A stretch of DNA of 64,000 nt from Marinactinospora thermotolerans DSM 45154 (GTDB lineage Bacteria; Actinomycetota; Actinomycetes; Streptosporangiales; Streptosporangiaceae), in the NCBI RefSeq assembly GCF_900167435.1, contig NZ_FUWS01000003.1, forward strand, positions 62,001-126,000. Direction: 5' to 3'. Below, one piece after another: positions 27,291-35,659 of this stretch. Position numbers and translations under genes: made by a program. The notes beneath the pieces are model-generated. The model saw nothing but the letters and a program-made list of their open reading frames with translations. It did not search any database and was not told where the DNA came from. Every line of letters begins with the position of its first letter. Within the stretch, counting starts at the first letter, position 1.

Positions 27291-27715
27291 GGCCCGCGCG
27301 CCAAGCGCGATGCGCGCCCGGCCATGGGGGCGGAACGCTCCAGGGGCGCGGCGGAGGGGCCGCGCCCGGACATGGACGGACCCCCGGGCTCGGAGCGCCG
27401 AGGCGCTCCGTGGCCGGTGGACAAGGCCGGCCACCCGGAGGTCTGGGTGTCCATCAGGGATTCGCCGGAGCGATCCCGTATACGGGTCGCCCTAGCGGAC
27501 GAACACCTCGCGAGTCCTAAAAGAATGCACTTTCGGACCACCTCCCTTCTTGCGTGCTTATGACGCTACGTCCCCTGGCGCGGGTGGGGCAAATGTTTTT
27601 CCGGCCCCACCCTCGGCCCACCCGGGTGAGCTCCGCCACCACCGTCCGCGCGGCGTGGGGACGGCCGTTGCCACCGCGGCGTCCAGACCTCCACCGGGGA
27701 CCGTAGACTCGGTTC
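27291..27715. other. 425-bp gap with a strong hairpin
   Basis: Between the nitrobindin gene and the Fur-family gene I see no convincing gene; short frames on both strands lack ribosome-binding sites at usable spacing. A perfect 9-bp hairpin, GGGTGGGGC / GCCCCACCC (27582-27590 and 27604-27612) around an A/T-rich 13-nt loop, stands in an AT-richer patch (about 27500-27600). It could be a terminator or part of a small RNA. TAGACT at 27704-27709 is the -10 candidate for the downstream regulator. Confidence 0.45.
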
Positions 27716-33552: not shown

Positions 33553-33861
33553 CTACGCCTGAACGGCCAGGTCGACGATCCTGCCGGTCTCGGCCTTCAC
33601 CTCGTACTGGGCGGTGAACCCCTGGGAGGCCAGGACGCGCACCGTCCAGTCGCCGTCGGCGGCGAAGAAGCGGAACGTGCCCTCCTCGCCGGTGGCGACC
33701 TCGCCGACGAAGTCGCCCGAGGCGTTGAGCAGCCGCGCGTAGGCGCCGCTGAGCGGACGCCCGTCACGGGTGACCACCCCCTGGATGACCGCCTGGTCAC
33801 CGGCGTTCACGTCGGCGAGGGCGACCCCTCCGACGGGAGCGCCGCAGCCGTTGTCGCTCAC
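33553..33861 (-). CDS. DUF1416 (SseC-like) protein
   Basis: A 102-residue protein with a transthyretin/CNA-B-like beta-sandwich look: VIQGVVTRDGRPLSGAYARLL, then GTFRFFAADGDWTVRVL. This is the DUF1416/SseC family, which follows thiosulfate sulfurtransferase genes in actinobacteria. A Cys near the N-terminus (NGCGAP) is notable. Function is unknown, but the constant partnership suggests a role in sulfur transfer. The GTG start at 33861 overlaps the sseA stop (GTGA), so translation is coupled. Confidence 0.9.
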   Translation of the reverse strand: MSDNGCGAPVGGVALADVNAGDQAVIQGVVTRDGRPLSGAYARLLNASGDFVGEVATGEEGTFRFFAADGDWTVRVLASQGFTAQYEVKAETGRIVDLAVQA

Positions 33862-34697
33862 TTGGCCTCCCCCAACTCGACCGGGACGCCCACCAGCGAC
33901 CCGTACTCGGTCCAGGAACCGTCGTAGTTCTTGACGTTGGACAGGCCCAGCAGCTCGTGCAGAGCGAACCAGGTGTGCGAGGAGCGCTCGCCGATGCGGC
34001 AGTAGGCGATGATGTCCTTGTCGAGGTCGACGCCCGCCTCGGTGTAGAGGGCGCGCAGCTCCTCCTCCGACTTGAAGGTGCCGTCCTCGTTGGCGGTCTT
34101 GGCCCACGGGATGTTGCGCGCGGTGGGGATGTGCCCCGGCCGCTGCGAGGTCTCCTGCGGCAGGTGCGCCGGCGCCAGCAGCTTGCCGACGAACTCGTCG
34201 GGCGAGCGGACGTCGACGAGGTCCTTCTTGCCGATCGCGTCGACCACCTCGTCGCGGAAGGCCCGGATCGAGGTGTCCTGCTCCTTGGCGGTGTACTGGG
34301 TGGCCGGCCGCTCGGGGACCTCCTCGACCAGCTCGCGGGAGTCGAGCTCCCACTTCTTGCGGCCACCGTCGAGCAGCTTCACGTCCTGGTGGCCGTAGAG
34401 CTTGAAGTACCAGTAGGCGTAGGCCGCGAACCAGTTGTTGTTGCCCCCGTAGAGCACCACGGTGTGATCGTTGGCGATGCCACGCTCGGAGAGCAGCTTC
34501 TCGAAGCCGGTCTTGTCCACGAAGTCGCGGCGGACCGGGTCCTGGAGGTCCTTCTTCCAGTCGATCTTGATGGCGTTGCGGATGTGGCCCTTGTCGTAGG
34601 CCGACGTGTCCTCGTCCACCTCGACGAGGACGACGTTCGCGTCGTCCAGGTGAGCCTCCACCCAGTCGGCGTCGACCAGGACGTCGGAGCGGCTCAT
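33858..34697 (-). CDS. sseA: Thiosulfate sulfurtransferase (rhodanese, SseA/CysA type)
   Basis: A 279-residue two-domain rhodanese that moves sulfane sulfur from thiosulfate to acceptors such as cyanide or thiols. The active-site loop of the second domain is AYCRIGERSSHTWF, with the persulfide Cys. Conserved SDVLVDADWVEAHLDD starts the first domain, whose loop lacks Cys (VVLYGGNNNWFA), as expected for the family. AGGAGG sits just before ATG 34697. The gene is coupled to DUF1416 downstream. A cysteine leader peptide encoded about 480 bp upstream suggests regulation by cysteine supply. Confidence 0.94.
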   Translation of the reverse strand: MSRSDVLVDADWVEAHLDDANVVLVEVDEDTSAYDKGHIRNAIKIDWKKDLQDPVRRDFVDKTGFEKLLSERGIANDHTVVLYGGNNNWFAAYAYWYFKLYGHQDVKLLDGGRKKWELDSRELVEEVPERPATQYTAKEQDTSIRAFRDEVVDAIGKKDLVDVRSPDEFVGKLLAPAHLPQETSQRPGHIPTARNIPWAKTANEDGTFKSEEELRALYTEAGVDLDKDIIAYCRIGERSSHTWFALHELLGLSNVKNYDGSWTEYGSLVGVPVELGEAK

Positions 34698-35120
34698 GGG
34701 AACCTCCTTGTTTGGTTTGCGGGTCGTGCTACGTCACGGGGAAGCCGTCCGCCCACCCTCATCCGGTGTGCCTCGCGGAGGCGACGGCGCTCGGGGCGGG
34801 GGACGGCTCGCGCCGCCGGCGGGAACCGGAGGTCGCGAAGGCGGGAGGCAGAGCGGCCGGGCGACCGGCGGAAGCAGCCCACGGGGGACACGGCACGCGG
34901 GCGGGGAACGCCGCCCCAGCGGACGGCGCCCGCCTGGCGTGGGGAAGGAGGGCGAGGACCGGCGCCCCGGCCGTGTTCCCGCCGACCGGCCGCGCGGTCC
35001 TGCCGGTGGGCAGGGCTGTGGCCGGGAGGGTGGTGACGACGGCTGCGGGGGGACGCTGACCTCTGGGGTCGACCTTCATCGTGGTTCCCAGGTGCGTGAG
35101 CGGTGCTGAGGGATGTGGAG
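34698..35120. other. 423-bp region between attenuator and sseA
   Basis: This region is very GC-rich and frames are open on both strands. The best minus-strand candidate runs 34759-35079 (106 residues, ATG start, weak upstream GGGA). Its Pro/Ala/Arg composition is what non-coding high-GC DNA yields, and I recognise nothing in it. I treat the stretch as untranslated leader of the sseA transcript or DNA inserted between leader and gene. The sseA ribosome-binding site lies at its left end. Confidence 0.35.
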
Positions 35121-35168
35121 CGCACCCGTTGCGGGGTGCGGTCGCTTCCGTGGGGCGCGTACGGCGCC
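35121..35168 (-). promoter_or_regulatory. Candidate attenuator hairpins after the leader peptide
   Basis: Two hairpins follow the leader-peptide stop on the minus strand: GGCGC / GCGCC (35154-35168) and CGCACCC / GGGTGCG (35121-35140). They could serve attenuation coupled to leader translation. No U-run follows, so Rho-dependent control is equally possible. Confidence 0.35.
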
Positions 35169-35179
35169 GTGGGCTCGCT

Positions 35180-35269
35180 CTACAGGGCAGCGCGACAGAG
35201 CGCGGTGGCGACGCGGCAGAAATCGACCGCGCGTCGCTTCGTCAAAAGCGCGTCTGTCAGGAAGGTCAC
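35180..35269 (-). CDS. Cysteine-containing leader peptide upstream of sseA
   Basis: A 29-codon frame starting GTG 35269 encodes a peptide ending in LLTKRRAVDFCRVATALC plus four residues. The segment RRxVDxCRVxxxxC is the hallmark of short actinobacterial leader peptides found upstream of sulfur-metabolism genes, so I am confident in the family although it is tiny. TACGAT lies 7 nt before the GTG, giving a leaderless mRNA. The two Cys codons (positions 18 and 25) would be slow when charged tRNA-Cys is scarce, changing downstream expression. The direct target is probably sseA, though 480 bp separate them. Confidence 0.8.
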   Translation of the reverse strand: MTFLTDALLTKRRAVDFCRVATALCRAAL

Positions 35270-35338
35270 GGTGACGATCGTACGGCGTGGGCCGCGGGAT
35301 GTCACGGGTGCGCTAATTCACAGTGGCCGGGACCGGGG

Positions 35339-35659
35339 TCAGGGGATCGCGGCACCGAGCGCGGCGATGACGTCGGCCTTGCGAGGGGTACCGCTCGCCT
35401 GGCGGACGATCCGGCCCCCGGCGTCCAGGACGAGGACCGTGGGGGTGCGATCGACGCCGAGACGCCGGACGAGCTCAAGGTGGGACTCGGCGTCGATCTC
35501 GACGTGGGCCACCCCCTGGACGAGGGCGGCGACATCGGCGAGGATCCGCCGGGTCGCCCGGCAGGGCTGGCAGAAGGCGGTGGAGAACTGGACGAGCGTG
35601 GCGCGCTCTCCGAGCGGCGCGCCGAGCTCCGCCGCGCCGAGGAGGCCTTCCCCGGTCAT
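35339..35659 (-). CDS. Thioredoxin-family protein
   Basis: A 106-residue thioredoxin fold. The active site is CQPC in LVQFSTAFCQPCRATRRIL, and the cis-Pro loop is RTPTVLVLD. The dipeptide between the Cys residues (Gln-Pro) differs from the Gly-Pro of classical thioredoxin, so redox potential and partners may differ. AGGGGA precedes ATG 35659. It has no signal peptide, hence cytoplasmic. It lies between LmeA and the leader-peptide/sseA unit on the same strand, a redox and sulfur neighbourhood. Confidence 0.88.
   Translation of the reverse strand: MTGEGLLGAAELGAPLGERATLVQFSTAFCQPCRATRRILADVAALVQGVAHVEIDAESHLELVRRLGVDRTPTVLVLDAGGRIVRQASGTPRKADVIAALGAAIP

Follow-up and report, generated by a model that had tools for sequence, protein, structure and literature searches.

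The closest published case to the locus described here is the cysteine-rich, leaderless upstream open reading frame (uORF) that precedes cysA2/Msmeg_5788 of mycobacteria, which is occupied by ribosomes in M. smegmatis (PMC4633059). In addition, cysteine-dependent attenuation in M. smegmatis is credited to Canestrari 2020 in two works that cite it (PMC9031893, PMC13236596). A literature search on the motif strings and on the names Ms5788A and cis_reg_atten returned no paper within the collection covered. The leader type is already recognised as an annotated family, and the present locus adds one more member to it.

Here, we analyzed a window of 64,000 nucleotides from Marinactinospora thermotolerans DSM 45154, focusing on a short ORF upstream of the rhodanese gene sseA. 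We regard it as fairly likely that this ORF encodes a regulatory leader peptide without a 5' untranslated leader, of the Ms5788A/cis_reg_atten type known from actinobacteria, which heads a (DUF4395)-sseA-DUF1416 sulfur operon and senses cysteine through sequestration of a ribosome-binding site (RBS).

A probable leaderless leader peptide upstream of sseA

The original prediction had described a 29-codon ORF carrying an actinobacterial motif, and had read it as a cysteine leader peptide. The ORF is indeed present, and it is GTG-started (Table 1). It scores 32.5 bits (E = 5e-8) against NF042934 (cis_reg_atten), passing the curated cut-off of 27, and 41.6 bits (E = 7e-11) against NF042933 (Ms5788A), just under the curated cut-off of 45. 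These two curated NCBIfam models, together with family-wide synteny, support the cysteine leader reading. Within the GTDB family, 145 of 150 genomes contain a match to NF042933; among 296 genomes sampled throughout the phylum there are 17 with a match, all belonging to the class of the window. As the cut-off was exceeded in only nine of the 150 family genomes, the model fits mycobacterial members best. Moreover, the peptide is conserved in relatives, where a leader was found upstream of sseA at every one of the 127 loci read.

Regarding transcription, the -10 hexamer ends 7 nt upstream of the leader GTG, and its placement relative to the -35 hexamer puts the predicted transcript start on the GTG itself. 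The same geometry recurs in relatives: a TANNNT box lies 6-8 nt upstream of an in-frame ATG or GTG in 125 of the 127 sseA loci, as compared to a chance rate of 0.9% at random positions, and a TGACA -35 element is spaced 16-18 nt from the -10 box in 114 of them. The leaderless -10 element proposed earlier is confirmed at the sequence level. No second promoter-like site was detected by the promoter scan in 34680..35345, and shuffled sequences gave none at all. The leader contains two Cys codons, non-adjacent and seven codons apart, both of which are intact. Downstream, sseA has a strong Shine-Dalgarno (SD) sequence of its own, AAGGAGG, while a thioredoxin-like and an LmeA-like gene are found upstream on the strand of the leader. 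Elsewhere in the window, the Rfam model of Ms_IGR-5, an actinobacterial sRNA, matches over its full length at 27372-27555 on the minus strand (RF02471; 74.3 bits, gathering threshold 45), and the only tRNA gene is a tRNA-Thr (TGT anticodon) at 2129-2202, also on the minus strand.

Table 1. Features of the leader locus, in window coordinates.
Feature	Position	Strand	Basis
Promoter: -35 GTGACA, 17-bp spacer, -10 TACGAT (35282..35277)	35277..35305	minus	Promoter scan; geometry repeated in relatives
Leader-peptide ORF, leaderless, 29 aa, GTG start, VTFLTDALLTKRRAVDFCRVATALCRAAL then stop	35180..35269	minus	ORF reading, NCBIfam matches, conservation at sseA loci
Hairpin A within the leader ORF: outer arms ACAGACGCG (35257..35249) / CGCGCTCTGT (35204..35195), inner arms GCGACGCGCGG / GCCGCGTCGC	35195..35257	minus	Folding and codon-permutation test
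Second Cys codon UGU (Asp+9), proposed sensing codon	35195..35197	minus	TGT in 111/111 sseA leaders and in class-wide leaders
End of the leader ORF with its stop codon, proposed as the 5' arm of hairpin B (block of the next RBS)	35176..35191	minus	Evident in relatives but weak in the window
Proposed 3' arm of hairpin B, CGCTC (35102..35098) to GGGAA (35089..35085, SD-like), ahead of the DUF4395 start	35085..35102	minus	Duplex comparison
Remnant of a decayed DUF4395 gene, 106-aa open frame that retains the start MKVDPRGQR	34759..35079	minus	Position, start, alignment to nearest relative (L126)
sseA, two-domain rhodanese (sulfurtransferase)	33858..34697	minus	Profile matches
DUF1416 gene after sseA	33553..33861	minus	PF07210, E = 5e-34; read in frame, exact start inferred

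The interval between the leader and sseA

We then focused on the interval separating the leader stop from the sseA ATG, which measures 482 nt, in agreement with the approximately 480 bp first given. In 84 of the 127 loci this gap is filled by a DUF4395 gene, indicating that the leader heads a DUF4395-sseA-DUF1416 operon; in the nearest relative (locus L126), the gene in the gap matches PF14340 at 1e-44. The DUF4395 start lies some 40-175 nt past the leader stop in nearly all loci with a located start, and in another family of the same class, which is without DUF4395, sseA itself follows 124-226 nt after the leader. The distance had been judged unusual for an attenuator, and either a very long leader or an unrecognised short gene had been offered to account for it. 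As the gap corresponds to the DUF4395 gene of relatives, the distance is not odd; the very long leader can be set aside, and a gene does belong in between, namely DUF4395, but in the window genome it has decayed.

The ORF in the gap has no Pfam or NCBIfam match. It was nevertheless assigned as a DUF4395 remnant, because its position, its start and its alignment to the intact gene of L126 agree. As compared to that gene, it shows Leu/Phe to Pro changes and deletions, and the gene body is gone. A second working gene in the gap was accordingly rejected, since the unmatched ORF aligns as decayed DUF4395. Decaying DUF4395 copies, both in the window and at three other loci (L133, L104 and L109), drift mostly towards C/G, a trend that turns Leu and Phe codons into Pro and leaves reading frames uninterrupted over long stretches, so that an open frame is no sign of a working gene.

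Mapped on an sseA tree with 110 loci, losses of DUF4395 number approximately 18 (Fitch) to 22 (Dollo), and the leader was retained through every one of them. Moreover, a DUF4395-like start persists in about three quarters of the clades that lost the gene. In codons 2-9 of the remnants, differences to the nearest intact relatives amount to 12, 23 and 42 at codon positions 1, 2 and 3, the same third-position bias as in intact genes, whereas in codons 18-25 they are spread evenly (55, 63 and 52; p = 0.0004 for the contrast). The start of the dead gene thus appears to be still under selection, and the simplest reading of these sequence comparisons suggests that it is part of a regulated initiation site. 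For an open remnant frame and for ATGA coupling to sseA, signs of selection did not clearly exceed chance. Altogether, these results explain the recurring puzzle of leaders distant from sseA: DUF4395 has been lost repeatedly, with its start, presumably a regulated one, usually kept.

A cysteine codon of constant spelling

The two Cys codons of the leader differ sharply in their conservation. Among 111 sseA leaders of the GTDB family, the second is TGT in all 111 and the first is TGC in 109, while within the sseA genes themselves, at the loci read, cysteine is encoded by TGC in 129 cases and by TGT in a single one. When 104 leaders were read automatically class-wide, a set overlapping partly with the sseA leaders just counted, TGT was seen at Asp+9 in 101, that is, in 101 of the 101 correctly registered leaders; the remaining three (L143, L198 and L204) were misregistered, and codon-level reading of two of them gave TGT in L143 and TGT one codon off in L204. 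Other motif Cys codons in the same read were TGC in 67 cases and TGT in 11. Likewise, TGT was found in 76 of 76 distinct paralogues, though the search pattern asked only for a Cys residue. Leaders matching NF042934 before other genes, in the same genome and in relatives, also have TGT at Asp+9, the genes being KorA-like, sulfite-reductase-like and symporter-like, as judged by eye from protein starts. On other contigs of the same genome, leaders with UGU at Asp+9 were seen before a KorA-like (L004), a symporter-like (L006) and a sulfite-reductase-like gene (L009), again named by eye, as well as at L008. The first Cys is often replaced by L, V, Q, R or A; one sseA leader (L117, genome G007) has Leu in its place (RRAVDLLRVASAIC), and its second Cys remains UGU.

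The peptide itself is also constrained. Residues L-7, R-4, H-2, D0, L+1 and R+3 are nearly invariant among the 76 distinct paralogues through varying codons, including changes from CGN to AGG, noting that the search pattern fixed D0 and favoured R+3. In sseA leaders, third codon positions vary within KRRAVD. As residues stay constant while codons vary, selection seems to act on the peptide itself, and an invariant UGU together with an often missing first Cys points to a nascent peptide under selection in which one UGU codon is the sensor. A requirement for UGU imposed by hairpin A was rejected as a general cause, as 27 of the 111 sseA leaders are without the ACAG partner and paralogous leaders have no such stem, while UGU is kept in all of them.

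Tentatively, leaders of the R[RL][HA]VDxxRVxSxLC type might work as one-codon sulfur sensors, in which the selected nascent peptide would stall the ribosome at one Cys codon that must be UGU, owing either to slow wobble decoding when charged tRNA-Cys falls, or to a tRNA modification requiring sulfur. Several sulfur and iron-sulfur genes per genome could be placed under the same device, and the first Cys would not be essential. Slow wobble decoding by tRNA-Cys is our preferred guess for the UGU requirement. A UGU that does not change between many genera and gene contexts, although the genomes otherwise spell Cys as UGC, marks the likely sensing point and makes this leader family amenable to testing.

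Predicted RNA structures and mode of control

The original prediction had placed two hairpins after the leader, at 35179..35121, and had proposed a possible attenuator. The segment does fold, at -24.5 kcal/mol, but at chance level (z = -1.2, with 24 of 200 shuffled sequences as good). No terminator-like site was found in 34680..35345, and a trp-type transcription attenuator is not supported, as an intrinsic terminator between the leader and the first gene was not found. No Rfam element was detected in 34640..35345 at E values up to 1. The structures recurring in relatives are different ones, namely hairpin A, inside the leader ORF, and hairpin B, formed between the next RBS and the end of the leader, including its stop codon. 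Transcription attenuation from the two hairpins first named is therefore unsupported, and the comparison favours RBS sequestration instead.

For hairpin A, the mean folding energy over 107 distinct leaders is -30.4 kcal/mol, as compared to -27.7 (sd 0.22) after within-column permutation of codons and -21.2 when synonymous codons are drawn at random, and the ACAG partner of CTGT is found in 84 of 111 sseA leaders, against 0.8% per scanned segment in sseA; both tests are inflated by the relatedness of the leaders. For hairpin B, tail/SD duplexes in the clade of the window (clade A) average -21.1 kcal/mol within loci, -19.0 between loci and -14.5 when shuffled. Compensated arms were found, among them GCUUCCC/GGGAAGC in L082 and GUUUCCC/GGGAAAC in L117, and in clade B the pairing of CCUGAGGG with CCCUUCAGG includes some bases of the SD. 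When the footprint of a ribosome at Cys2 is masked in clade B, the SD is predicted to become more accessible (0.34 instead of 0.23, p = 2e-5), whereas at Cys1 there is almost no change. In the window, the predicted change at the RBS is small (0.48 to 0.51), clade C gave no clear effect of ribosome masking on SD accessibility, and RNAalifold found no common structure in the clade A alignment. Pairing of the leader tail and stop with the next RBS in relatives favours translational attenuation; computation supports RBS sequestration in relatives, by ribosome masking in clade B and by duplex comparison in clade A, whereas the predicted effect is weak in the window and absent in clade C. Separately, the leader mRNA is complementary at its 5' end (GUGACCUUC, 35269-35261) to the remnant start (GAAGGUC, 35079-35065) on the minus strand, an observation that also concerns L126; pairing of the mRNA 5' end with the DUF4395 start was rejected, being no better within loci than between loci across the clade.

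In the mechanism we propose, transcription would begin on the GTG and the ribosome would translate the leaderless uORF. With plentiful charged tRNA-Cys, it would reach the stop and leave, and the tail/stop segment could then pair with the RBS of the next cistron and shut it. When charged tRNA-Cys is short, the ribosome would wait at the UGU and cover the tail/stop segment, leaving the next RBS free. The leader would, in this way, probably serve as a sensor of cysteine shortage. The first controlled cistron would be DUF4395 in most relatives, of which the window keeps the start region. We infer the response to cysteine, the direction of control and the effect on sseA. Against this model, DUF4395 is dead and sseA has its own AGGAGG, which leaves transmission of control to sseA unexplained, and the leader has only two non-adjacent Cys codons.

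Alternative explanations

Part of this evidence can be arranged otherwise. The conserved nascent chain (L..R[RL][HA]VD[LF].RV.S.[LI]) may prime the ribosome for a strong stall at the single UGU, in which case the peptide, rather than a run of Cys codons, would be the sensor. This overlaps with RBS sequestration and specifies the stalling; the near invariance of residues under changing codons speaks for it, together with the free third positions of KRRAVD, and one Cys codon is enough in many leaders. Yet the stall and its ligand are hypothetical, hairpin A also shapes codon choice in sseA leaders, and an effect of the peptide alone would not explain the constant UGU spelling, so that we see arrest as a real prospect that falls somewhat short of an even chance. 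The difficulty of passing control on to sseA could instead be met by Rho, which would terminate the transcript within the long, GC-rich interval ahead of sseA whenever the post-leader cistron is untranslated, stalling in the leader setting that translation. The kept start of a dead DUF4395 and the action of a distant leader on sseA would both be accounted for, no intrinsic terminator was found in 34680..35345, and the title of a work cited in PMC13236596 links Rho and translated uORFs to premature termination in M. tuberculosis. The action of Rho at this locus is hypothetical and selection for an open remnant frame is not clearly above chance, and we consider it rather unlikely.

It could also be that decay of DUF4395 left the rhodanese expressed independently and the leader uncoupled in the window genome, as the weak hairpin B and the strong SD before sseA would allow. 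The leader has, though, kept its residues, its two Cys codons and an undamaged promoter, with no further promoter-like site in 34680..35345, and the leader was kept through all DUF4395 losses, which makes a vestigial leader improbable. Least probable by far is a trans-acting small protein in place of a cis-acting leader: strong amino-acid conservation with free third positions would suit it, but the ORF immediately precedes genes, many of them with roles in sulfur metabolism, and a fixed UGU and an ORF-internal hairpin are RNA and decoding constraints for which such a protein has no need. A cis-acting leader working through RBS sequestration remains our preferred reading.

Comparison with known systems

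TnaC and ErmBL are short arrest leaders with amino-acid conservation a tunnel-length before the critical codon, and ErmBL contains R-x-V-D. They differ from the present leader type, in which a Cys codon with a single spelling occupies the critical position, and the stall and ligand are hypothetical. With NF042934 (cis_reg_atten), the window leader shares the R..VD..R......C motif, a score above the cut-off and UGU at the last Cys, whereas most other members have RHVD instead of RRAVD and precede different genes, which frequently belong to sulfur or iron-sulfur metabolism. With NF042933 (Ms5788A), it shares a leaderless short ORF, the LTKRRAVD[LF]CRV motif and the same sulfurtransferase operon downstream; it differs in having two separated Cys and no polycysteine tail, in scoring 41.6 against the cut-off of 45, and in its decayed DUF4395. 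Finally, a leaderless Cys uORF and proposed translational attenuation are common to this locus and to the polycysteine attenuators of M. smegmatis (Canestrari 2020, as represented in the works citing it). According to the same citations, adjacent Cys codons do the sensing there, whereas here, in a leader with no Cys run, a single UGU seems decisive.
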